Translations under genes and position numbers: made by a program
Source of the DNA: a virus
DNA length: 23,040 bases
Strand: one strand, 5' to 3'
IMG/VR virus record: IMGVR_UViG_3300033153_001033
Span: 1-23,040 of that record
Notes under the pieces: model-generated
Database searches by the model: none
Told to the model about the DNA's origin: nothing
The model's input: the letters and a program-made list of their open reading frames with translations, nothing else
Shown: positions 411-22,539 of the stretch, piece after piece
Position numbering within the stretch: position 1 is the first letter of the stretch
How the letters are laid out: each line of letters starts with the position of its first letter

Positions 411-1931
411 TCAAGCAACCTCTAAGTCATCGATAACTGATACGGCATACAAAGCAGATGACGCGGAATTGGTTCCGCTTCCATCACCTGCCCAATACAA
501 AACTTGTGAGTTAGTGCTACTAACAGGGCAAACAACCTGCGAAATTGTTTCCCCTAAAAACTGACTGGCCCCAATATCTAAAAAGCTCCTAAAGGTTATA
601 TCTGCCGTTTGAACACCAAAAGGCCCAGTGTCCTGATCTGGGTGATTTAATTTAAAGCTGCAAGATGCACCAAAAGAACCCACCTCGATCATGGCTCCAT
701 AAATTGATGTCCTTAATTTTCTGTTAGCAGGACACGGAACATTTGGAATTGGTGTTGTTGAAATGTTAGAAATATCAACAACATTACCTGAAAAGTATTC
801 GACAGCTTCAAGATAAAAATACTCTCTGTTATTTCCAGTGCCTACCCAATTATAAATATTTGAGGCTCCGTTTGTTTGAACATCACCAACCCTGCGATAA
901 TAAACAAACCCAACACCCGCAGCGGTTAACAGGTTTGCAGCCGTATCGGACGTGTCAAATCCTGAATAAACGGTTGATCCGTTGGATATTACAAAAACAC
1001 GATAAGAACTATCAGCCACCAAAGGAACGCCAGCAGGCAAACCGCCAGTTTCCATGATGGGATTATCAGGAGCCCAAACAGCATCAATTTGCTTGGTTAT
1101 TTGATTTGGAAAATCAATAAATGCAACATTATCCCAATCCATTATGCTACCAGGAAATATATCTATATCGTTAGCCGAATCCGTTATATTGTTTTGAAGC
1201 TCTAAGCCAGAAACATAAGCCTTTCCCAATGGAGGATTATTTATTGATGTCGATGGAGAAACCCTCAAATCCTCAACATCAATAATTCCAGAAACATCCG
1301 TTTCAATCCTCCATATAATTAACTGACTAGGCCCAACGGTCCCAGATGTAAATCCAATTAGGTTTGTTGATGAATCAATAAAAACAGAAACTATCGAGCT
1401 TGAGGGAATGGTTAAAACTGACGCTGCAACACTTACCGTTTGGGAATTATTTATATATCTACCAGCACCAACAGCAAATTCAAAATCAGTTGATTCATTT
1501 TTAATCTCTCGATTGAATGATTGTCCTCTAGGCATATCGGTAAAATCACTAGCAATAACCCAATCACTTGGATTTGCATCTGGATCACCAGTGTTAGAGG
1601 TTATTAATGATTCATATATCTCACCATCAACCCATAAAACTTTCGCGTTTTTTGCATAAGGGAATGGAACCGCATCATTTTGGGCGGGTGTAATAAATGG
1701 ATAAATACCAAATGTTTGCCACTCATTGAGATTTTCCGTTATATCTTTATAAAGTGCGTTTGATTCTTCTCTTGGGACATCCTTGGCATTAATTGGATCG
1801 ACGGTTTTATCAATCTCATAATCTGAACCAAAACCCTGCTCATAGCTAACACTTCCATCGATCTGATCCTCATCAGGAATTGTCGTTGTATCCCCACCAG
1901 TTGCCCAAGGAATTCTGAAAAATTTGCTCAT
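411..1931 (-). CDS. Tail fibre protein
   Basis: A 506-residue protein last in the baseplate gene order, where phages place the receptor-binding fibre. Its N-terminus has the layout of baseplate-anchored fibres: an IPWATGG opening, an IPDEDQIDGSVSYEQGFG segment near residues 18-35, and a conserved-looking stretch with ITENLNEWQTFG near 64-75. Residues about 90-130 (VLWVDGEIYESL, then NTGDPDANPSDW) resemble the small carbohydrate-binding-like module common in phage fibres. The rest is Gly/Ser/Thr/Asn-rich and beta-predicted, with no recognised enzymatic motif. ATG at 1931 follows the TAA of the previous gene after one base. Fibre identity is well supported by N-terminus and context; the receptor is unknown. 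Confidence 0.8.
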   Translation of the reverse strand: MSKFFRIPWATGGDTTTIPDEDQIDGSVSYEQGFGSDYEIDKTVDPINAKDVPREESNALYKDITENLNEWQTFGIYPFITPAQNDAVPFPYAKNAKVLWVDGEIYESLITSNTGDPDANPSDWVIASDFTDMPRGQSFNREIKNESTDFEFAVGAGRYINNSQTVSVAASVLTIPSSSIVSVFIDSSTNLIGFTSGTVGPSQLIIWRIETDVSGIIDVEDLRVSPSTSINNPPLGKAYVSGLELQNNITDSANDIDIFPGSIMDWDNVAFIDFPNQITKQIDAVWAPDNPIMETGGLPAGVPLVADSSYRVFVISNGSTVYSGFDTSDTAANLLTAAGVGFVYYRRVGDVQTNGASNIYNWVGTGNNREYFYLEAVEYFSGNVVDISNISTTPIPNVPCPANRKLRTSIYGAMIEVGSFGASCSFKLNHPDQDTGPFGVQTADITFRSFLDIGASQFLGETISQVVCPVSSTNSQVLYWAGDGSGTNSASSALYAVSVIDDLEVA

Positions 1932-1932
1932 T

Positions 1933-2523
1933 TTATAGCCCCACTATTGTATGAGAAACGCCCGATGGCGTTGGTACAACATTTAGATTTTCCATAACAA
2001 ATTCCACCCAAGGAGGAATTACAAAATCAAAATTATAAACAATGGTCATATCCTGATTATCAATAACCCAAACATCACCTAAAGCGCCAAAAGCATTAAC
2101 TAAAATTTGATTAATCTCTGGTACTGTTCCGCTAGAAACTAAATATTGGTATCTCATTTTTAAAACAAGCCTACGTTGCTCCACGCTAAGGAACTGGGCA
2201 CCAGTACCTGAAATATTGAAATTGCCATTATTAAAGTTTTCTCTAAACTCCCCAAAACCCCATCCCTCTTTGTTAGGATTAACGATTGGCTCATTTATCA
2301 GCAACGGCACATCGAGAATTATGGCCCACACTGCAAGACCAAACTCATTAGAACTGTCAATATTAAAAACATCGGCAATCCAATTATTCCAAAATGTTTC
2401 ATGGTTTTCATCTAAAAAATATTGTTTATTTTGAATCCATGCAATCAGTCTTTCGGCAGAATCATATTGCCAAAGTACATTCCTCATAAGATTAATTGAA
2501 AAATCAAAAGTTTGAATATTCAT
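1933..2523 (-). CDS. DUF2612-type baseplate wedge protein
   Basis: A 196-residue protein directly after the gpJ-like gene and before the fibre. It starts with aromatic-rich helical sequence (WQYDSAERLIAWIQNKQYF around 19-37), continues with WNNWIADVFNIDS and ends with a short beta-rich domain whose tail, VVPTPSGVSHTIVGL, fits the Pro-x-Gly-Val ending I associate with DUF2612 proteins. In phages with DUF3383 sheaths this family is the wedge component linking gpJ to the tail fibre, similar in role to P2 gpI. Its ATG overlaps the TAA of the upstream gene by one base (TAATG), implying coupled translation. Family from memory, supported by synteny. Confidence 0.7.
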   Translation of the reverse strand: MNIQTFDFSINLMRNVLWQYDSAERLIAWIQNKQYFLDENHETFWNNWIADVFNIDSSNEFGLAVWAIILDVPLLINEPIVNPNKEGWGFGEFRENFNNGNFNISGTGAQFLSVEQRRLVLKMRYQYLVSSGTVPEINQILVNAFGALGDVWVIDNQDMTIVYNFDFVIPPWVEFVMENLNVVPTPSGVSHTIVGL

Positions 2524-3719
2524 TAAACAATTACCACCGATATATCGGATGTCGTAATGCTTGCTTGCTGGAATATTTCTATAGGGAAAACATTTGTGGC
2601 TGGTGTTCCGCTGGCAACACTATCTACCTCTACTTTTCTAACAAATAAACCGGGGTTTTCTTGGTTTACGGCACCGCCAAGCTCAAATGGAGAAACAGAA
2701 GCCCCCACAACAAAACCACCTTCACCCTCTATTAGCCCATTCGCATAATCAACAATCGATTGTTTAACGGCGGTTTCTGCATCCACAATAGCGGTTCCAA
2801 CACTAACCTCAACCACGGCCTCCATTGGTACATCCACCGGCCTATCAAATTTAACATCGTAAGATTGGCCGGTTATCTCATCAACCGTTGGAACAACTAC
2901 TGCTCCCGTCCATCCGGTGCCGCCTGTTTTTGATTTAAGTAGTGCGGCGGCAACATCCGCATCCGTACCACCAGAAACGCAAACATAAATGGAATTCGCC
3001 TCTATAAATTTTCCATCAATCAAAGCGCCCGAGGACGTATTATTTTCCCTGTAAGCCAATGACGTAACATTATCAACAGCTCTAACATTAGACGAAACAG
3101 CCTCCGACAATGAGCGACCTTGAAGTGCCAGAGTTTGCTTTCTCCTTAATCTCGCCGCTTGATCTTTTTCCTGATCTCTTCCGGTTGTTCCGGCCACTGT
3201 ATTGTTTATTGTCTCCCAACCCAAAACGGCGGTGACTATTTCAGAAAGCTCACCAATACCAACTTGAATTTCCCCATCTTCAATTGATTGAAAACTTCCA
3301 GAACCATTTCCACTACCATCGAGATTTATAACGGCGGTTGATTCAAAAATATCACCATTAACTGTTTTTGCCTGACTTCCTGCAGGTATGACGGTTAGAG
3401 GCTCCCCTGTTACATCTGGTGGTGTTAAAAAGGTTGTTGGTAATCCCCCTAATCTCTCACCGTCTGTAAGAGCAAATATTGCATCAAGAAACAATCCCTC
3501 TGATAAATTAGGGTTAATTTGATTCGCTAGATCGGCATTATTTCTAGCCAAGCCATCTCTTTGGTCGATTTCTGCACCTATGATAACGCCTTCGGGTGAT
3601 TCTGGATCAATAACAAAATCCACCCCAAAAATAGCCTTGTACTCGTTTTCAACATCCTCTTGGGTGGTAGCGGTATCTGGGACAATGATTCCTGTTTCTG
3701 TAATGTAATTATATGGCAT
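2523..3719 (-). CDS. Baseplate J-like wedge protein
   Basis: A 398-residue homologue of P2 gpJ / T4 gp6, the wedge protein that forms the ring around the baseplate hub. Typical features are the N-terminal YITETGIIVPD and ATTQEDVENEYKAIFG region, the segment following with IDPESPEGVIIGAEIDQRDG, a beta-rich middle (PAGSQAKTVNGDIFES, residues about 112-127), and the RDQEKDQAARLRRKQTL helix near 180-200 that precedes the core gpJ fold. Length is normal for the family. It is coupled to the genes on both sides by TAATG junctions, between the gp25-like and DUF2612 wedge components, matching the standard contractile-tail order. Confidence 0.92.
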   Translation of the reverse strand: MPYNYITETGIIVPDTATTQEDVENEYKAIFGVDFVIDPESPEGVIIGAEIDQRDGLARNNADLANQINPNLSEGLFLDAIFALTDGERLGGLPTTFLTPPDVTGEPLTVIPAGSQAKTVNGDIFESTAVINLDGSGNGSGSFQSIEDGEIQVGIGELSEIVTAVLGWETINNTVAGTTGRDQEKDQAARLRRKQTLALQGRSLSEAVSSNVRAVDNVTSLAYRENNTSSGALIDGKFIEANSIYVCVSGGTDADVAAALLKSKTGGTGWTGAVVVPTVDEITGQSYDVKFDRPVDVPMEAVVEVSVGTAIVDAETAVKQSIVDYANGLIEGEGGFVVGASVSPFELGGAVNQENPGLFVRKVEVDSVASGTPATNVFPIEIFQQASITTSDISVVIV

Positions 3720-4078
3720 TATATTGTTCCGCTTATTGGGGCTGTTCCATAGATCGTTTTAATGGTCGCCTCATATATAATTGTGTTATTAATAAATCGA
3801 ACGTCAAAATTAGGAACGTCCTCAACATCAGGAACCGACTCAAGGGCTATTCTGGACTTAAATTCGAACTCAATCAAATTAGGTGAATTACCAAAAACAC
3901 CGTTTTGATCAAAACTCAAAATCCCTCGATTAATATCGCGCACTAACTCGCCTTTTCTGATAGTGATAATCTGTTCGCATAATTGAATTACAGCGGCCAA
4001 TTCGGTGAATATAGCCAAGTGGCTGTCCTGACCCAAAAACCAATCGTTGTTTTCATCTGTTCCAATTACTTGTGTCAT
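3719..4078 (-). CDS. gp25-like baseplate wedge protein
   Basis: A 119-residue protein with the length and fold signature of the T4 gp25 / gpW family (also called XkdS or DUF2634), a small wedge component that helps initiate sheath polymerisation. The ELAAVIQLCEQIITIRKGELVRDINRGI region (cited in parts: helix near 27-40, KGELVRDINRGI near 42-53) corresponds to the conserved helix-turn that ends in Gly. The C-terminal half is a beta-alpha-beta stretch (ESVPDVEDVPNFDVRFINN) as expected. It lies between the spike and the gpJ-like gene, the usual place, and its stop overlaps the next start as TAATG. No lysozyme catalytic residues are expected in this family. Confidence 0.82.
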   Translation of the reverse strand: MTQVIGTDENNDWFLGQDSHLAIFTELAAVIQLCEQIITIRKGELVRDINRGILSFDQNGVFGNSPNLIEFEFKSRIALESVPDVEDVPNFDVRFINNTIIYEATIKTIYGTAPISGTI

Positions 4079-4080
4079 TC

Positions 4081-4815
4081 TTAACTCGCCGTATGCTTTG
4101 TTGATGCGCTTGTAATGACTCCAGGAACTGTTACTGGGGACGGGTTAGGGACTCCGGCTGTAGCAGAAACCAAAAAAGTTCCAGACGGTATTGTAACCTC
4201 AACCTCGTCACCCTCTCGGGCTATAAAAGGACCACCAGAGCCAAGATTTACATTTACACCAATATTCACCTCGCTAGCCGCCTCAATATCAACAACATGA
4301 TCGCATATAATTTTTATTCTATCATCTTTGAAGGCGACACGCTTTTTACCATCAATGGCTTGAATTACAAAATGCTCGCCGTTTTCAACCTCATATCCTC
4401 GCATTACATCAGGAATAAATACAGCATCCGAAAATTTATGTCTTCTTTTGGTGTTGGGCCCACTTTCCTCGTAACTTTGAAGAAAAAGAGAAATATCCCG
4501 ATCATTGGCTTTTATCCATCCCAGATCACCAGCGGATATATTGTTGAAATTAATTACATAACCACCACCGCCCAATTGAAATACAGGCAAGCTTTCAATG
4601 GATTCCCTTTCGATTAATTCCCCTGTTTGAGATTTTAAAATCTTAATTAATGGTTTTACCTTTACGCGAGCGGGTGGTCCAGCTTCAAAAGCCTGAACCA
4701 TGCAAGGCAACATATCATCAACACCGCCAATAAATTTAGGTAATATTTCAGCCAACATCCCAGACAAATCACCTTCATTTGCTGGATTTCTGCTAGGTGC
4801 TACATTATCAGCCAT
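4081..4815 (-). CDS. Baseplate central spike, Gp138-like OB-fold protein
   Basis: I place the start at the ATG at 4815, giving 244 residues beginning MADNVAPSRNPANEGD, because GAGAGG lies just upstream. An in-frame upstream ATG at 4881 would add 22 residues inside the hub gene and has less support. The protein has an N-terminal OB-fold segment (MVQAFEAGPPARVKVKPLI, then FQLGGGGYVINF and AGDLGWIKANDRDISLFLQ) matching Gp138-type membrane-piercing spikes. A short beta-rich C-terminus with EVTIPSGTFLVSAT could form the trimeric needle. The gene overlaps the hub gene end by 8 bases. Role: tip of the tail tube that contacts the outer membrane. There is no His-x-His metal-binding tip motif of the P2 gpV type. 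Confidence 0.78.
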   Translation of the reverse strand: MADNVAPSRNPANEGDLSGMLAEILPKFIGGVDDMLPCMVQAFEAGPPARVKVKPLIKILKSQTGELIERESIESLPVFQLGGGGYVINFNNISAGDLGWIKANDRDISLFLQSYEESGPNTKRRHKFSDAVFIPDVMRGYEVENGEHFVIQAIDGKKRVAFKDDRIKIICDHVVDIEAASEVNIGVNVNLGSGGPFIAREGDEVEVTIPSGTFLVSATAGVPNPSPVTVPGVITSASTKHTAS

Positions 4816-14611: not shown

Positions 14612-15193
14612 TTAAGATTTACCTAAGTATGCAGAAACTTGGTTACCTTCTCCACCTTTATCTTTCCTGTCCATACTAAAAGCATTTTCAGAAACCTTGG
14701 GGCGATTATGGAAAAAACCTTTAAGTACAGCAATTTCACTGCCTTTTTCACACTCAATTTCCAACTTATCTATGCCGTATTGGGCAACTTCTTCCAGAGA
14801 TTTTTCGGCGTGATCGAAAGCGCCTACATGCTGAGAAATATTTTCGACCAGTTCGTTTTTGGATGCTTGATCTTTCAGGAAGTTTTTAACTCCATTTTCT
14901 GATTGATCTTTTAATTTAGATTCGAGATCGGCTATTTTTGCATCTTGAGCGGCAAGTTTATAGGCGGTTTCTTCTTCTTCGTCCTCGTCCTTTTTCTTCT
15001 CTTCTTCTTCGTCTTCGGCCTTTTTCTTCGCCTCTGCTTCTTCGTCTTCGGCCTTTTTCTTCGCCTCTGCTTCTTCGTCTTCGGCCTTTTTCTTTTCTTC
15101 CTCGGCCTCATCCATAGCATCTAAACGCTTATTGATAGAATCTTGACCAGTAAGAATTAGGTCCATTTTTTCTTCGAGTGCTGACTTAGGCAT
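14612..15193 (-). CDS. Predicted free scaffold protein from an internal start of the protease-scaffold gene
   Basis: Inside the protease-scaffold gene, an in-frame ATG at 15193 (residue 192 of the full product) is preceded by GAGGA at 15205-15201 with an ideal seven-base spacer. It lies just after the protease domain ends, so it would yield 193 residues ([16 protein letters not shown] onward) made only of the coiled-coil scaffold part. This mirrors lambda Nu3 inside C and Mu Z inside I, where free scaffold is produced in excess from a nested start. The ATG and ribosome-binding site are seen directly; use of the start is inferred. Confidence 0.6.
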
Positions 15194-15766
15194 TTGGAAA
15201 TCCTCGTTTGAATTCTGTGTGATATTGTAGTGATCTAAAGCTATTCCATCCGACTTGTCAAGGACTGCAACCTCTTTGCCCATTCTGCCCTCTGGCACCA
15301 AAGCTAAATGATTGCCTCTTATATCGGTTTGAATAACGTCATATCTTTGACCTTCGAATTCTCCTACAGCTAATTCATATTTGCAACGGTAGCCACAAGA
15401 TAATTCTCTTTTGCCGGATTCTATATCATTCGCCATACTTTCTGAAAATAATTTAATATTTCCTTTTAAGTAACCATCCTCGAAATAAATATCCTCTCCG
15501 GTAACACCGTCCACCCCTTTATCTTCGGGGGCTGTAAAGCTTTCGCCTAACATTTCATGCTCATCGATCCACGGCAAAAGTTTGAAAGAATTTATACAAT
15601 TCGAATCTGAAAGCGCGGATTCTGGTCGATAAACTTTATAAATTTTATTTTTATCTAAGCCTGGCAAGCCGATAGACGAGCCTAAATAATCAAAAACACC
15701 AACCTTTGACAAGGGATTTCCCTTAATCTCCATAAAGCCATTGGTATCAAAATCTCTCGCTGTCAT
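14612..15766 (-). CDS. Prohead protease with C-terminal scaffold domain (DUF2213-type)
   Basis: A 384-residue two-part protein. Residues 1-170 match the DUF2213 protease pattern: a conserved His in DEHEML (H70), a [13 protein letters not shown] segment, the [11 protein letters not shown] motif with a Ser (S123), and [15 protein letters not shown] (H153). Ser and His residues in this layout fit a herpesvirus-assemblin-like serine protease that removes scaffold during head maturation. Residues about 200-300 form a very charged coiled coil with an 11-residue Glu/Lys repeat, the scaffold. The C-terminus (about 300-384) would contact the capsid protein. The region just before ATG 15766 lacks a strong ribosome-binding site, unlike the internal start, so the full-length form may be the minor product. 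Confidence 0.82.
15018..15083 (-). repeat. 33-bp tandem repeat encoding an undecad coiled-coil repeat
   Basis: Two identical 33-bp units lie at 15018-15050 and 15051-15083, with partial copies on both sides (about 15002-15017 with one mismatch, and 15084-15094). Each unit encodes 11 residues, [11 protein letters not shown] in one register, so copy-number changes keep the frame. It forms the core of the scaffold coiled coil. Perfect identity at DNA level suggests recent duplication by slippage. Confidence 0.9.
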
Positions 15767-15769
15767 TTT

Positions 15770-16093
15770 TTATTTGCTCTTTCGTGAGATTTGTTTGGCT
15801 CGGTAGGATATTGCTTTCTCATCGTCGCACCACGCCTCGGTTAGTTCTTTAGTTTTGAATTGTAGCGCATCGCCCACCATAAAAGTAGATAGATGTTTAA
15901 AAGTCTGTTTTTTCCTTTTTTCTTCCGTTGCGCTTAATCTTTTTGCATAAGCGCCTTTAACTATTACGGATTCAGCCACCCAGACCAAATTAGGATCGGG
16001 CTTTCTCTTTGCGCTTTCTCTTTTTGGGGTCGATCCCATTTTATTTAGCTTTGAAGAGGTTTTTTTGGAGATTTTCTTTTTTGTTTCGCTCAT
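15770..16093 (-). CDS. Small lysine-rich protein of unknown function
   Basis: A 107-residue, strongly basic protein (KKKISKKTSSKLNK at the N-terminus, ending AKQISRKSK). A middle part with NLVWVAESVIVKGAYAKRLS and KHLSTFMVGDALQFKTKEL could be a small folded domain. Its ATG overlaps the stop of the Mu gpF-like gene (ATGA), and the protease-scaffold gene starts four bases after it ends, so it is translated with the head genes. I do not recognise a family. A nucleic-acid-binding or head-internal role would suit the charge, but nothing shows it. Confidence 0.65.
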   Translation of the reverse strand: MSETKKKISKKTSSKLNKMGSTPKRESAKRKPDPNLVWVAESVIVKGAYAKRLSATEEKRKKQTFKHLSTFMVGDALQFKTKELTEAWCDDEKAISYRAKQISRKSK

Positions 16094-16992
16094 ATTATTT
16101 CACCATCTTCGAATTCAATAACTGGCATCATTCGGCATTTGCAATTGATCGCCTGCCCAGGTATGCCTCTTTCACCAGTTCGAGTATCTATAACCGGCAA
16201 ATCAGAAAAGCTAAAAATACCACCATTTAAACCAGAAGGAAACTTTGCAATGTGATGAGGTCTTGGAGTTTGACCTCCACCGGAGTGAAGCCATTTGAAT
16301 TTATTAACACCAACATCCTGCATTCTGGCTTTATTTACCGAATTATAGGCTTTTCTAGTTTGATCCAGAGCCATGTTTTTAGCGTGTCGCTTGGTAATTC
16401 CCTTTTGTTTCTCAAAAAATGGAACCAAATTCTGCAAACCATTACCAGTGGTAATTGATCGCATAACCTCGCCCTGAATTTGTGTTAAATATCGTGTTGG
16501 AATAGTTTTGATCAATTCAGCATTTTCCGCAATTGATGCCTTTACTACTTCAGACACGTTTTTGGTTGCTTTGGTGGGGTCGATGGCGATCCCTCCTGAC
16601 AATTCTTTTAAACTGCTTTTCAATGATGCTTCGCTGGTCTTATTCACAGCACCGAGCATTTCCTCGCTTATGCTTTTTGCTTTATCGGAAAAGAGCTTTT
16701 CGAATTCTTTTATAAGCTCATTCATTAGAATTCGAGATTGACTGGAAATACTGGCATCCTCACCAGTTGATTGCTCGAAATACTCTTTCGATTCGGGGGC
16801 GGTGAATAGCTTTACCACTTGCGATTGAGTTTCTTTAATCATTGAATTGATTAACTTGTTAAGCTCTTTCGTATAGAGAATACCAATCGAGGCGTTATAG
16901 TTAAGGGGATTTCCCTCAACTACCGCCGTGGGCTTGAATTTTTCAGCCCATTTTTTTCTCTTATCGCTTATCGGAATGGCGCGTCGACTCAC
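16090..16992 (-). CDS. Minor head protein, Mu gpF-like / SPP1 gp7-like
   Basis: A 300-residue protein immediately after the portal gene, the normal place for this family. The C-terminus has the diagnostic pattern: ALDQTRKAYNSVNKARM, a Trp-His pair (KWLHSGGG), RPHH at 244-247, LNGGIFSF, and GIPGQAINCKC with Cys 284 and 286. These His and Cys residues probably bind a metal. Family members act in head morphogenesis and may be ejected with DNA. The start is GTG at 16992 overlapping the portal stop as GTGA, with no strong ribosome-binding site, implying translational coupling. Confidence 0.88.
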   Translation of the reverse strand: MSRRAIPISDKRKKWAEKFKPTAVVEGNPLNYNASIGILYTKELNKLINSMIKETQSQVVKLFTAPESKEYFEQSTGEDASISSQSRILMNELIKEFEKLFSDKAKSISEEMLGAVNKTSEASLKSSLKELSGGIAIDPTKATKNVSEVVKASIAENAELIKTIPTRYLTQIQGEVMRSITTGNGLQNLVPFFEKQKGITKRHAKNMALDQTRKAYNSVNKARMQDVGVNKFKWLHSGGGQTPRPHHIAKFPSGLNGGIFSFSDLPVIDTRTGERGIPGQAINCKCRMMPVIEFEDGEII

Positions 16993-18989
16993 TTAGCTGG
17001 CATCCATCTTTCATCGTGCAAGATTAGGAAATTCACATTATCCCAAGAATCTTTAAACATATCGGAATTGGCATATTCGATCATTTTTGCCAAGTCGCCT
17101 TCTTCTGGCTGATATTTCAAGGAAATATGAGGTAAAAATTCATCGTGTGAATGTTCACCCCCCAAATCGGCTATTTCTTGGTGTCTCGCCTGCAGGTCGT
17201 CCGATTTCAGCATCATAACCAAAGCTCTATATTCTCCCTCTCCCAATATTTTGAATTCGTTGGTCGGGTAGGCTGTTCTCGGGTCGTTTTGCAAATCAGT
17301 TTCAGGAATTCCTTCGGGAGTTTTGTCGTAAAATAAGGTTATATGCAAATCTTCAGGCATTAAACCACCTTCGATATCGGCACCGTATCTCACCATATCC
17401 GATATTTTCATGGCGTCATTACTTCTCGGGCGAATGCTTACATATCCATTGATGTTTAAAAAATCCGTTCCGTCTGTGGCATCTAAATCTTCCTCGATTT
17501 CTTCCTCTTCGTCCGTTTCTGGCAATTCTAAATGGTTATAGCCGCTATTTTTATCAGTCGCTAATTTTTCCCGAACGTCCAGACCGTCGATTGCTCCAAT
17601 ATTTGAATAGTTTAAGGCGGTGATTGATTTAGTTTGATTAATATCCGCCTCTTCTTTTTGCGTAGGCGCATCAACGGGGCTCCAATCAATATCGAATTCC
17701 TTTTTTTCGTTGAAATCAGACTTTAAAACCAATTGATAATGTCTTTCGACCATGCTGTTTAGATTATTTTCCTGAATAGATTCCAGAGATTCATGGTAAA
17801 CCTTCAATTCATTTTCACCAGTAGCATTGAAACCTTTCGGGCTGGTACCCAATAATCTTGTGGCCGGTGTGTTAGCGATAGCAGCAACCAATTGGTATTG
17901 TGTCATTATCACGGCATCTAAATCGGCAAGAGAAGTATCCGTTTCGCTGATTGTTTCATCTAGCCCTAAAGTTTTGACCGCAAAGTTATCACGCAAAGCT
18001 ACCCACCTTTCCATTTTATCCATAAAAACTTCTTCGTTTGTGATAGCGGCTTCCATATCGACGTTAATCGAAGTGGTTCGCTTGGTCATTGCAAGCATTG
18101 GTCCCTCGTTAGCTGTACGCTCTGAGGCATAAACTCGCTCATATATCAATTGAGTAAGAGGCAGACCTCCATAAATATAGGTAGGTTTGTAAATGTCTGG
18201 GACTTCCGAATAACGAGTAATAACCAAATGCGATTTGTGATAAAGCCTTCCTGAAATTCTCCAATAGGTAGGTTCATAAAAATCAATCGATGCAGGTTCG
18301 GCAACGGCAGCCGAGTTTAATTCTGGTGTTACCCAATACGGATCAATTTGCGAAATCCCTTTATATTTTCCCTTTTTTACACCATCGATATTGAAGGGTT
18401 TTTTGTAATAATCTTTATCGCTTGAATCTACGACAAACAAAGCAACACGAATTCCAAAAACTCGATTGAACTTTTCGAACTCGATTAAATTTTTGTGAAT
18501 CTTGTATTTTTTATCCGTTTTTCGGAGTTTCATCATAAAATCGGCGTCGATTTCATTATCGGCTGGAAAATTAATATTATATCCATTGCAAACGGCGTCC
18601 TCTGCGGCTGCGGTGCAAGCTTTATCAATCAACCAATGCTGAGACAGCAAAGCGCAAGCCTGATGTCCTATAAAACTTTGAGAGGTATACCAAGAAAACA
18701 GGGAATCTGGCATTACTTGCTGATTCAATGCAAAGGCTTTGTTTAATGTTCCCTCGTCCATTGCCGTATGCGCACCATCAATTGCGAATTGATCATCACC
18801 AACACCGTCGATTTTCTTAAACTCTGGTATTTCGGTAATGGCATTTTTTTTAAAAAACGATTTAACATTCAGATTTCTAAGGGAAATGTCCGTTCGAAAA
18901 AATCCGTTATAGACCGGTTCACCTTTGCTTGGTGAATTTACTATTGGATTATCGTCTTTGTTTCTGTTCCCAAAAATATTATTAAACAT
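16989..18989 (-). CDS. Portal protein (DUF1073-type) fused to an Acb1-like 2H phosphoesterase domain
   Basis: I start this at ATG 18989, giving 666 residues (MFNNIFGNRN); GAGGA with a seven-base spacer supports it over a TTG at 19019. Residues about 70-470 are the DUF1073 portal: HWLIDKACTAAAEDA, an FNRVFGIRVALF strand region, IDPYWVTPEL, IYGGLPLTQLIYERVY and ANTPATRLLGTSPKGFNATGE. Twelve copies would form the DNA channel. An acidic linker (EEEEIEEDLDATDGTD, about 494-508) leads to a C-terminal domain with NGYVSIRP (Tyr 516) and two H-x-[ST] motifs, HITL (H549, T551) and HISL (H621, S623), the signature of 2H phosphoesterases. Motif spacing resembles the anti-CBASS protein Acb1, which cleaves cyclic nucleotide signals. 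Whether the domain acts in the virion, or after release, is unknown. Confidence 0.85.
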   Translation of the reverse strand: MFNNIFGNRNKDDNPIVNSPSKGEPVYNGFFRTDISLRNLNVKSFFKKNAITEIPEFKKIDGVGDDQFAIDGAHTAMDEGTLNKAFALNQQVMPDSLFSWYTSQSFIGHQACALLSQHWLIDKACTAAAEDAVCNGYNINFPADNEIDADFMMKLRKTDKKYKIHKNLIEFEKFNRVFGIRVALFVVDSSDKDYYKKPFNIDGVKKGKYKGISQIDPYWVTPELNSAAVAEPASIDFYEPTYWRISGRLYHKSHLVITRYSEVPDIYKPTYIYGGLPLTQLIYERVYASERTANEGPMLAMTKRTTSINVDMEAAITNEEVFMDKMERWVALRDNFAVKTLGLDETISETDTSLADLDAVIMTQYQLVAAIANTPATRLLGTSPKGFNATGENELKVYHESLESIQENNLNSMVERHYQLVLKSDFNEKKEFDIDWSPVDAPTQKEEADINQTKSITALNYSNIGAIDGLDVREKLATDKNSGYNHLELPETDEEEEIEEDLDATDGTDFLNINGYVSIRPRSNDAMKISDMVRYGADIEGGLMPEDLHITLFYDKTPEGIPETDLQNDPRTAYPTNEFKILGEGEYRALVMMLKSDDLQARHQEIADLGGEHSHDEFLPHISLKYQPEEGDLAKMIEYANSDMFKDSWDNVNFLILHDERWMPAK

Positions 18990-20640
18990 CAAAAAATCCT
19001 CGCGCTCTGCCGCTGCCAATTAGCATTCTATCTATGGCATCCATCCATGTATCCCAAATATCATCGTTATCATGGGAATCATCAACACTGAAATCGGATG
19101 CCTCTTTTAAAGCTGTCAAAACCCAATCGGTACTACCTGCTCGGGTGCCATCACTATAATACACTTCTTTTACTTTATCGCCTTCCTCGTCATAAACCTC
19201 TGGTACAAATACCTCACCGCCTTTAACTTGAGGTGTGACGTTTTGACACCGAATAACCTTGTTTTCGTTATTTCCCCTTGGTATTTCTTCCACTGGAATC
19301 TTTATTTTTTTTTGTCTGGCTTTTTTCTTTAGTGTGGTAATTAAGCCTTGTCCAGCCTGTTTGTCCTCAATCGCCATATATCTAATTCGGGATTCCTTGT
19401 TTTTGCTCCATCGATCCCAAACCTCAATTGCCTTTTTGACCAAATCGTCTGGGTCCCATTTTCCCCTCTCTACGTCGATTATATATAAATTACCATCCAT
19501 CCCCAATCCAGCCAAAGTAAAAACGGTATAATCGTTGTGTTCTTTTACCTTTCCTGAATTCGTATCAACGAATACGGCTCGCCATTGGAGTTTTGGCAAT
19601 TTCTCATATCTTTTAAACCAATCCGAGTCTATTAAACCACCCGTAAGCACTTTTGGTTTCTGCATGTACTGACTTAAAAAGGTGTAATCGTCCGATTCCC
19701 ACAAATCGACCAAATCTTGAACATATTCCATTTGAGGCCAATATGACCAATATTTTACCCCGGCAACCTCAACTGATTCGGAATCCTTAACACATTTCCA
19801 ACACAAATCTCGGTAATAAGGGTCAAGAGTTTGAATATATTCCTCATCGATCAAAGCGGGAATGGTAAGACAATCGAAATTCACCCCCATACCTCCTGAA
19901 AGCATAAAGCCCGAGGCATCCATTGTGTGTAGTCTTTGCTGAATGGATAAAAAGGGGGTGGGGTGTTCTTTTGATTTGTCGCCTCTTCTCGATCTGACGG
20001 TGTTTACCAATTTTCTGTTTGCTGCATCACGTTTGGTTTCGGAAAACATATCGTCTGGCTTATTGTAATCGTCCAGCATCACGGCGCCCGAATATTCCTC
20101 GCCATAATAACCGGCCCGACCACCAGTAATTTGACCGCCTGAACCTCTACTAACGGTCTGACCTACAGATTTTCCTTCCTCGTTTAAAATCTCCCATTCT
20201 TCCGCTTGATTCACGCCAAATTTAACAGGCCATAATTCCTGAAATTCAGTCGATGCCAAAATGTCTCTGGTTCTCCTTGAGTTTCTTTTTACCAATGTGT
20301 CAGCAAAGGAAATATTCAGATTGCGGAATTTCCTAATTTCGTTCGTCATGCATTTGACGTACTGATAGGCGGGAAAGTGGATAGAAAAGAATTCCGTTTT
20401 CGTTCCACCTGGCGGGATATTTATTACTAATGAGTTTCTATTTTCACCAGAAATCATTTGATCAACCTTATCGGCCATTAATTCATGGTGCCAATTTATC
20501 ATCAACTTATCGCCTTGCATGATTTGAAACCATACTCGGGTAAATTGAAGAAATGAGGATTCGGCAGTATTTTTAACCGCTACTTTGTCGGCAATTGATA
20601 ATTCGGGCCACTCAATTATTCCACTGTCAGAGTTTGCCAT
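18982..20640 (-). CDS. Terminase large subunit
   Basis: A 552-residue DNA-packaging motor protein with ATPase and nuclease domains. The ATPase part shows WHHELMADKV (50-59), a Walker A-like INIPPGGTKTE (74-83) that departs from the usual GKS/GKT loop by having T before K, and a Walker B-like GAVMLDDYNKPDD (about 185-197). The nuclease part shows VFVDTNSG (Asp 359), DYTVFTLAG, MAIEDKQAGQG (Glu 425, Asp 426) and a C-terminal DDSHDNDDIWDTWMDAIDRM. It overlaps the small subunit by 14 bases and the portal by 8. Full length for the family. It translocates DNA through the portal and cuts the concatemer. Confidence 0.92.
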   Translation of the reverse strand: MANSDSGIIEWPELSIADKVAVKNTAESSFLQFTRVWFQIMQGDKLMINWHHELMADKVDQMISGENRNSLVINIPPGGTKTEFFSIHFPAYQYVKCMTNEIRKFRNLNISFADTLVKRNSRRTRDILASTEFQELWPVKFGVNQAEEWEILNEEGKSVGQTVSRGSGGQITGGRAGYYGEEYSGAVMLDDYNKPDDMFSETKRDAANRKLVNTVRSRRGDKSKEHPTPFLSIQQRLHTMDASGFMLSGGMGVNFDCLTIPALIDEEYIQTLDPYYRDLCWKCVKDSESVEVAGVKYWSYWPQMEYVQDLVDLWESDDYTFLSQYMQKPKVLTGGLIDSDWFKRYEKLPKLQWRAVFVDTNSGKVKEHNDYTVFTLAGLGMDGNLYIIDVERGKWDPDDLVKKAIEVWDRWSKNKESRIRYMAIEDKQAGQGLITTLKKKARQKKIKIPVEEIPRGNNENKVIRCQNVTPQVKGGEVFVPEVYDEEGDKVKEVYYSDGTRAGSTDWVLTALKEASDFSVDDSHDNDDIWDTWMDAIDRMLIGSGRARGFFDV

Positions 20641-21023: not shown

Positions 21024-21944
21024 TTAAATCTCGCTTAACAAAACATCTTCGATTTGCTCGATTGTCTCACCCATTTGGATGATTACCTGTTCTTTCCACT
21101 CCTTCTGAATATTCAAACAAGCTTTATAATTAAACTCGTTGAATTTTTTAAGGTCTTCATGGTTGTTAATTATGAAAGACTTGTAATTTTTTATTCCGCT
21201 TTTCTCTAAAGTCTTGATGCAATTAGAATCAAATAGAATAACGGTATCAGCGCCCAGACACTCATAAAATCTATTTGCTAGATTGTTGAAGTTATCGTGG
21301 GTAAATTCGTCCTCGATATACAGGGAGTACCTAAACGAATTTAAGAGTGGCTTTGACCAGTTGATTTTTTTAATAAACTTCGGTTCACAGCCGATATGTT
21401 TAAATTTCTTGTAATTTTTGGGGCTGGTCGATAAAAATACCGGAGCTTGAAGGTACTTTTTGAAGTATTCCTTTCGATCGATTCTGAATGTTCCGTAATA
21501 GATGTGATCATATTTTTTGGGCGTCGATTTCAAATCTCTGAATAACAGTGTGTTCAAATTAACCATGTGAAAACTATCAAAGCAAGCAAATTTTACCGCG
21601 CCTTGTTCGTAATTGGCTAGAATGAATGCGCCACGCTTTTTGAAATGCTTATAAAAACAACCGTTAGGCCGTAAATTATATTCGTTGGTTATCCACCCGA
21701 GGCGAGCTTTGCTATTCCGATCCAAAAAAGAATCTATATCATCAAAACTAGGATACGGGGTCGCATAACTGACCAGAATAATTTCGTAATCATTCGCCAG
21801 ATATTTTGTTTTTTCGTTCGTGTGGAGAATGTCAACTTTATGCCCTCTCGCCCTCAAACCTTCGGCAATTTTATAAGCATTCCGAACGTGTGCATCAATT
21901 GGGTTTTTTGATTTAGGAACCGTTTCGATTATTAATAATTTCAA
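21024..21944 (-). CDS. Glycosyltransferase-like protein (GT-B-type N-terminus)
   Basis: About 306 residues from a TTG at 21944, which puts a typical GT-B strand first (LKLLIIETVPKSKNP) and has GGGGA six bases upstream; a TTG at 21977 is possible but adds an atypical N-terminus. The early part, DAHVRNAYKIAEGLRARGHKVDIL, matches the start of GT-B glycosyltransferases. The C-terminal half has FTHDNFNNLANRFYECLGADT then VILFD, resembling the sugar-nucleotide-binding region ('N-R-x-x-E-x-L-x-x-G-x-x-x-I'). It overlaps the ParB-like gene by 32 bases. Acceptor unknown: phage DNA, protein or host surface. Glycosyltransferase is inferred from motif pattern, with lower certainty at the active site. Confidence 0.6.
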   Translation of the reverse strand: MKLLIIETVPKSKNPIDAHVRNAYKIAEGLRARGHKVDILHTNEKTKYLANDYEIILVSYATPYPSFDDIDSFLDRNSKARLGWITNEYNLRPNGCFYKHFKKRGAFILANYEQGAVKFACFDSFHMVNLNTLLFRDLKSTPKKYDHIYYGTFRIDRKEYFKKYLQAPVFLSTSPKNYKKFKHIGCEPKFIKKINWSKPLLNSFRYSLYIEDEFTHDNFNNLANRFYECLGADTVILFDSNCIKTLEKSGIKNYKSFIINNHEDLKKFNEFNYKACLNIQKEWKEQVIIQMGETIEQIEDVLLSEI

Positions 21945-22539
21945 AGAATTTCCCCGAACTAATTTTGTCAGTTTCAACGCCTAATTCCATTTTTAATTGG
22001 TGTAAGTCGGATAAATCCTCACATTTAATAATAAAATTGGCGCTTTCGTTAATTTCGTCCTCTTCGTCAAAGTCTTCCGTATCCGAATCGTCCATAAATT
22101 CATCGATTTCATTTTGATCAAAACCTGTTTCCTCTGCATCAAATTCTTCCGACTCGATAATCTCCCGCATATCAGCGATTAAATTTTCCATGTTCCAGCT
22201 TGCATCTAAAGCCAAACGATTATCGGCAATGCCATAGGCTTTCTTTTCAATGTCTGACCAGCCTTGCGCAATCATAACAGGGCAATTAACCAAATTTAGA
22301 TGCTGTGCAGCCATAAGCCTACAGTGACCAGCGATGATTAAATTATCCTCATCTACCACTATCGGGTTGGTGAACCCAAACTTCCTCATTGATCTGACGA
22401 CTTTTTGAACTTGTTCCTCTGAATGATCGCGGGTATTCCCTAAATACGGTGAAAGCTCAACGGTAGGTAATTCGGTGAATTTATGCTTAAAAGGTAATTC
22501 CACTGGAATATTGTTTTCTTCTTGCGCGTTTTCACTCAT
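21913..22539 (-). CDS. ParB/Srx-fold nuclease-like protein
   Basis: I start at ATG 22539 (208 residues, MSENAQEENNIPVELP) because AAGGTG lies five bases upstream and the promoter start is predicted near 22585; the ATG at 22584 would be leaderless. Residues about 25-115 form a ParB-like domain with NTRDHSEEQVQKVVRSM, FGFTNPIVVDEDNLI, the AGHCR motif (G71-R74), CPVMIAQGWSDIEKKAYGIADNR. Such domains bind or cut DNA, or use nucleotides, and often precede a methylase; here none follows. After a WNMENLIADMREI helix comes an acidic stretch (about 145-166) and a C-terminal SANFIIKCEDLSDLHQLK segment. It is first in the operon. Function in this phage is unknown; DNA modification or packaging-linked roles are possible. 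Confidence 0.78.
   Translation of the reverse strand: MSENAQEENNIPVELPFKHKFTELPTVELSPYLGNTRDHSEEQVQKVVRSMRKFGFTNPIVVDEDNLIIAGHCRLMAAQHLNLVNCPVMIAQGWSDIEKKAYGIADNRLALDASWNMENLIADMREIIESEEFDAEETGFDQNEIDEFMDDSDTEDFDEEDEINESANFIIKCEDLSDLHQLKMELGVETDKISSGKFFEIINNRNGS

Follow-up and report, generated by a model that had tools for sequence, protein, structure and literature searches.

An Acb1-like 2H phosphoesterase domain at the C terminus of a DUF1073 phage portal protein, a candidate anti-CBASS enzyme tethered to head assembly

The window, i.e., the whole analysed stretch of 23,040 nucleotides (positions 1 to 23,040 of IMG/VR record IMGVR_UViG_3300033153_001033), belongs to a contractile-tailed phage. 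When IMG/VR relatives were sought by the window's protein alone, only one identical fragment was found (contig 3300033144_000848). The portal gene, its parts and the neighbouring head genes are located as follows.

18982..20640, minus strand: terminase large subunit (PHROG 38), directly upstream of the portal gene and overlapping its start
16989..18989, minus strand: portal-Acb1 fusion protein, 666 aa from the ATG at 18989
17628..18662, minus strand: DUF1073 / Phage_portal_3 core (Pfam PF06381, E 4.1e-81)
17448..17555, minus strand: acidic linker from core to enzyme, predicted to be disordered (pLDDT and composition)
16992..17447, minus strand: Acb1-family 2H phosphoesterase domain (PF23474 and predicted model)
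17442..17444, minus strand: codon of Y516, equivalent by alignment to the base-stacking Y12 of Acb1
17337..17345, minus strand: first H-x-T motif, H549/T551 (Acb1 H44/T46), invariant in 163/163
17121..17129, minus strand: second motif, H-x-S, H621/S623 (Acb1 H113/T115), His invariant
17010..17012, minus strand: codon of E660, which aligns with Acb1 E141, invariant in 163/163
16090..16992, minus strand: MuF-type head morphogenesis protein (PF04233, E 8.9e-10; PHROG 324), directly downstream of the portal gene
14612..15766, minus strand: DUF2213 head maturation protease (PF09979, E 2e-42; PHROG 3778)

An in-frame TTG at 19019 would extend the portal by 10 aa (ORF 16989-19019, minus strand). The ATG at 18989 is the better start, with a GAGG 8 bases upstream, and reproduces the residue numbering (666 aa) of an earlier note on this DNA. 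From its N terminus the protein comprises the DUF1073 core, a disordered acidic linker and the C-terminal Acb1 domain. The core passed the PF06381 profile with 272.9 bits (cut-off 33.8), and its nearest solved portals in a search with the full-length model were Pa193 (9b41; 47% identity, Z 29.6) and E217 (8fvh; 49% identity, Z 28.9). PHROG 146 (portal) matched residues 82-646 and thereby spanned both the core and the Acb1 domain, a hint that the fusion is common among phages. Core and enzyme are predicted to be joined by a flexible acidic linker: D or E occupies 14 of its 37 residues, and residues 479-526 (ATG numbering) had pLDDT values below 50 in the full-length model, in which the core is usable and the Acb1 part poorer than when folded alone.

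Additionally, a strongly repetitive acidic/lysine stretch lies within the head protease ORF (14932-15120); read in a different frame of that strand, it gives an Arg/Lys-rich ORF of 62 aa. The gene for a 317-aa protein (21024-21977) is situated upstream of the terminase genes, with the small terminase on one side and a ParB-like protein on the other; for this protein, PHROG and PADLOC searches gave no match and Pfam only weak ones, with a hint of glycosyltransferase family 4.

The earlier note had proposed an Acb1-like 2H phosphoesterase at the portal's C terminus from two H-x-[ST] motifs and a preceding Tyr. Acb1 is the anti-CBASS protein 1 of phages and degrades the nucleotide signals by which bacterial CBASS immunity raises the alarm. 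These residues lie where it had placed them (Y516, H549, T551, H621 and S623 from the ATG; Y526, H559, T561, H631 and S633 from the TTG), at distances of 72 between the two His and 33 from Tyr to the first His, and the Acb1 spacings of 69 and 32 that it gave agree with the published Y12, H44/T46 and H113/T115 (PMC9117128). As proof of Acb1 the motif pair was dropped: the same ORF holds four H-x-[ST], so two motifs alone mean little and the weight is carried by profile and fold. The Acb1 profile PF23474 (cut-off 27) scored 61.6 bits on the whole protein (E 8.7e-17) and 65.5 bits on the domain segment alone (E 5.6e-18); PHROG 755 matched the domain with E 5.6e-22 and the Acb1 chains of the PDB matched by sequence with E 9e-6. 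With PF06381 and PF23474 each scoring, the note's surmise that Pfam knows both domains was borne out. The folded domain begins at about 17447, slightly upstream of the motifs and inside the interval noted before, and ends at the stop codon. A model of residues 505-676 (TTG numbering; 28 sequences) reached pLDDT 88 and pTM 0.80. The comparison with Acb1 that had been suggested returned a bilobal 2H fold like that of solved Acb1, with FBB1 Acb1 7t26 as the best solved match (Z 15.8, 2.3 Å over 136 residues, 20% identity), closely followed by the phosphodiesterase of Burkholderia phage BCSR5 (Z 15.7); phage Acb1 and BCSR5 together ranged from Z 15.4 to 15.8, above LigT, CPDase and Usb1 (Z 10.7-12.4, rmsd at least 3 Å). 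Thus, profile, fold and catalytic residues support a DUF1073 portal that ends in an Acb1-like 2H domain. This part of the earlier interpretation stands, while enzyme activity and an anti-CBASS role are what we infer.

The fold is common to LigT, Usb1 and plant CPDase (Z 11-12), and a Usb1/LigT-like enzyme would process 2',3'-cyclic phosphate RNA ends or cut RNA instead of cleaving cyclic oligonucleotides. Such a function would agree with the weak match to PF13563 (LigT / 2'-5' RNA ligase 2), with the PHROGs family label 'RNA ligase' and with the RNase role that is one favoured option in the available part of a 2017 paper (PMC5512222). However, PF13563 stayed under its cut-off of 27 (20.4 bits for the whole protein, 24.7 for the domain), Acb1 is the better match in sequence as well as structure, and no RNA ligase was seen within the 23 kb of the window, itself a fragment. 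Since LigT-type profiles fall below cut-off and the Acb1-type residues, namely the adenine-contacting Glu and the stacking Tyr, are kept, we consider an RNA enzyme distinctly unlikely.

To the ligand residues of Acb1 also belong W74, F107, W147 and E141, the first three as base-stacking aromatics and the last in contact with adenine N6 (PMC9117128). Our domain set comprised 221 distinct domains from 274 loci, 163 of them on a DUF1073 core, 27 in other long ORFs and 31 short. H549, T551, R602, H621 and E660 were unchanged in all 163 distinct portal-fused domains; position 623 was Thr in 146 and Ser in 17, and position 516 Tyr in 161 and Phe in 2. Ser at the last catalytic position also occurred in 9 of the 31 stand-alone relatives. 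Some patterns of the viral scan contained Y516, H549/T551, H621 or E660; those of the genome scan (an II-WAK-Q and an A-WD-Y stretch) included none of these residues, and the 41 fused domains from that scan were equally invariant at the catalytic positions. Among 16 aligned full-length portals, eight columns were invariant, all in the Acb1 domain and none in the core. The active-site invariance, including that of the 41 pattern-independent domains and of the 16 portals, argues strongly, if indirectly, for a functional enzyme. The position of Acb1 F107 is His in the window's domain, and W74, W147 and the C-terminal lid could not be aligned with confidence; therefore, the substrate range may differ from that of Acb1.

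Unchanged active-site residues also speak against the domain being a purely structural portal appendage in which catalysis plays no part. What such a role would explain is the constant placement: the domain follows the core in each of 140 DUF1073 fusions, nearly always at the extreme C terminus. Close portal relatives, however, lack the domain or hold a pyrophosphatase there, and we regard the appendage as highly improbable. The window's core groups with that of locus L022 and, with it, the PB1/E217-type portals (starred branch of the core tree) of Pseudomonas, Xanthomonas, Serratia and Burkholderia phages. These are the closest cores (about 50% identical) and likewise carry a small C-terminal enzyme, but theirs is an inorganic pyrophosphatase (InPase, PF18823) instead of Acb1, a fusion already noted in 2017 for BcepF1 (PMC5512222). 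The next relatives, from Leptolyngbya phage Lbo-JY16 (492 aa) and Pseudomonas phage KLEP17-4 (482 aa), end without an extra domain. In the window's nearest portal relatives, the C-terminal slot used by Acb1 hence holds a pyrophosphatase or nothing, and the existence of related cores without it indicates that the domain is dispensable for portal structure. The InPase architecture was seen in L275, L276, L277 and L280, and tblastn with one InPase portal returned 467 phage records; the solved E217 portal is without the InPase region.

The domain also moves between portals, as L079 and L061 share 77% identity in the Acb1 domain vs 26% in the core. L079 falls into the window's core clade, yet shares 27% identity with the window in the Acb1 domain. 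A quick tree suggested that the window's domain had been acquired separately, from a T4-like lineage, which we do not claim; in an AU test, a single clade of all portal-fused domains was not rejected (p 0.86). Within the class of the host of L137, only 3 of 385 genomes matched, two of them already in the locus set; prophage copies are rare there. L061 additionally encodes a 798-aa portal with Acb1 and a PBECR3 nuclease (1830-4223), i.e., two effector domains on one portal.

Beyond DUF1073 portals, the Acb1 domain is also attached to a second portal family, to MuF, to DarA and to prohead proteases of three families. It was found with the portal family PF04860, usually plus MuF (L076, L201, L202, L214, L264), on MuF (L248), and N-terminal to DUF2213 head proteases (L065:3610-4878, L087:3908-6154, L184:2181-4055, L210:3285-4559, L234:3183-5495, L256:3330-5210), the family to which the window's own protease belongs. 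It likewise precedes the prohead proteases Peptidase_S78 (L058:3941-5104) and XkdF/S78_2 (L121:3740-4975, L195:875-2185, L217:3426-4334). In all five loci that also showed a DUF1073 portal alongside the DUF2213-protease fusion (L065, L087, L184, L210, L256), the portal was without the Acb1 domain. A P1-like plasmid of Pantoea sp. CCBC3-3-1 encodes a 1038-aa protein of DarA_N, DarA_C and Acb1 (L004:1961-5074), whose Acb1 domain is 41% identical to the window's; here, a head protein of the anti-restriction type is joined to an enzyme of the anti-CBASS type. That the domain sits on unrelated head proteins, N- or C-terminally, favours co-localisation or co-packaging over a portal-specific structural role, and the N-terminal position on proteases counts against an appendage as well. 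Edwardsiella phage ZHS has a separate Acb1 gene between terL and portal. Stand-alone Acb1-like proteins are annotated as 'prohead protease' in this phage (L017:2116-2712) and in Roseobacter phage DSS3P8 (L016:3489-3938); this name in public records and 'RNA ligase' for PHROG 755 look misleading for Acb1-like proteins. The domain also resides in giant ORFs of 1390-2194 aa, together with a portal and NUDIX (L064:2-6424), a pyridine nucleotide oxidoreductase (L057:624-6386) or a cREC cyclic-phosphate domain (L046:3701-7879); in a fourth (L241:840-7421), the Acb1 domain was accompanied by no non-2H Pfam match.

The location in the particle can be approached through cyanophage Pam3, whose portal has the same order of DUF1073 core and Acb1 domain (PF23474, E 5.5e-29, about 471-616), although its core is only about 22-27% identical to the window's. 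Its structure 8HDS ranked third for the full-length model (Z 21.5, aligned residues 27 to 406), and was absent among the listed matches of the isolated domain model. Of the 621-residue chain 442 residues are modelled, the Acb1 domain not among them; with the alignment covering 27-406 and the domain at about 471-616, at most part of the domain could be in the model. A domain not visible there is a further point against an appendage, and its absence fits protease cleavage and plain flexibility equally well. The C-terminal barrel of the related E217 portal points into the head (gp19 modelled 97-528 of 765; PMC10329688), so anything attached there sits within the capsid.

These data bear on the main rival to a late cytoplasmic enzyme pool, namely that the same enzyme is packaged in the head, is set free either by the maturation protease cutting in the acidic linker or during ejection, enters the next cell with the DNA and clears its signals immediately. 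The inward barrel, the head maturation protease encoded a few genes downstream of the window's portal, and cleavage as the cause of the missing Pam3 density would suit such a route, but the cleavage site in the linker is putative and twelve copies per virion amount to a small dose. Moreover, portals are not known to be ejected or to leave the capsid. For DarA, to which the Acb1 domain is joined in the Pantoea plasmid, the route has support, as the P1 protease processes DarA and the protein is ejected along with the DNA (PMC12810830). Packaging and injection have been proposed for 2H domains fused to MuF or portal in the available parts of the papers by Iyer et al. (PMC5512222, PMC9503650). On balance we consider delivery unlikely for the window's portal.

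With regard to CBASS, a SMODS cyclase domain over cut-off was present in 14 of 47 genomes with Acb1-fusion prophages vs 27 of 297 comparison genomes (odds ratio 4.2, p 2.7e-4), an association that is suggestive only because the 297 genomes, sampled from the order of one fusion-bearing genome, were unmatched for lineage and genome size. The BREX gene pglZ was no different (2/47 vs 10/297, p 0.67). The prohead protease of Bas13 is reported to interact with a CBASS sensor (PMC12409349), which makes late head assembly a plausible CBASS trigger, and nine further Acb1 proteins tested by Hobbs et al. all cleaved 3'3'-cGAMP and cAAA (PMC9117128).

The best explanation is, with a probability of about 0.65, a late-expressed, portal-tethered anti-CBASS phosphodiesterase. 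It builds on directly supported points (homology, the predicted fold, unaltered catalytic residues, mobility of the module and repeated head-protein attachment), from which we infer catalysis, substrate, timing and place of action. The last ~150 portal residues would form a working 2H phosphodiesterase of the Acb1 family, borne at the C terminus as cargo by the flexible acidic linker, and would hydrolyse adenine-containing cyclic di- or trinucleotide alarm signals of the CBASS type through acid-base catalysis by both H-x-[ST] motifs. Made with the late head genes, the domain would build up when head assembly can trigger CBASS, and each free, ring-assembled or prohead portal subunit would act as a signal-destroying enzyme in the cytoplasm. 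In subunits built into the virion, the domain would lie on the lumen side of the portal and be inactive there unless the head protease cut it free. As a tentative generalization, somewhat doubtful as it stands, Acb1 might be a mobile cassette placed on any available head-assembly protein (portal, MuF, prohead protease, DarA) that destroys the CBASS signal where and when assembly triggers it, so that anti-immunity would be wired into an essential structural part and its loss costly.

Compared with Acb1 of T4 and FBB1 (7T26/7T27, Hobbs et al. 2022), the window's domain shares the 2H fold, the H-x-T/H-x-[ST] tetrad at near-equal spacing, the stacking Tyr and the adenine-contacting Glu. In contrast to those free proteins of ~150 aa, it is fused to a portal and ~20% identical, its second Thr is replaced by Ser, and some aromatic pocket residues are not conserved. 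P1 DarA resembles it as a head-packaged anti-defence protein with an Acb1-joined relative in Pantoea, but is no portal, and the defence it counters is type I restriction. Both the fusion class and a role against signalling were put forward in print by Aravind's group in 2017 and 2022, and the window's portal is therefore not the first of its kind. The available text of Iyer et al. 2017 places 2H domains on MuF or portal and suggests that they act as RNases or degrade immune nucleotides (PMC5512222); that of 2022 suggests packaging and injection against nucleotide signalling (PMC9503650). Architecture class and the idea of countering nucleotide-based immunity are the same as here, but injection was their route and Acb1 is unnamed in the 2022 text; fusions to prohead proteases or DarA are not mentioned in the available parts of either paper. 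What is added here is the breadth of head fusions, the active-site invariance, the exchange of the domain between portals and its lack in the model of the Pam3 portal. The same intact enzyme on unrelated head proteins, including prohead proteases of the type that CBASS can sense, makes it directly testable whether counter-defence is co-localised with its trigger or delivered with the DNA, all the more as the fusion is present in culturable phages (Pseudomonas phiPSA1, Rhizobium phages, Vibrio phage PP270, cyanophage Pam3). If the domain is active, these portals would be structural proteins that double as hydrolases of immune signals.
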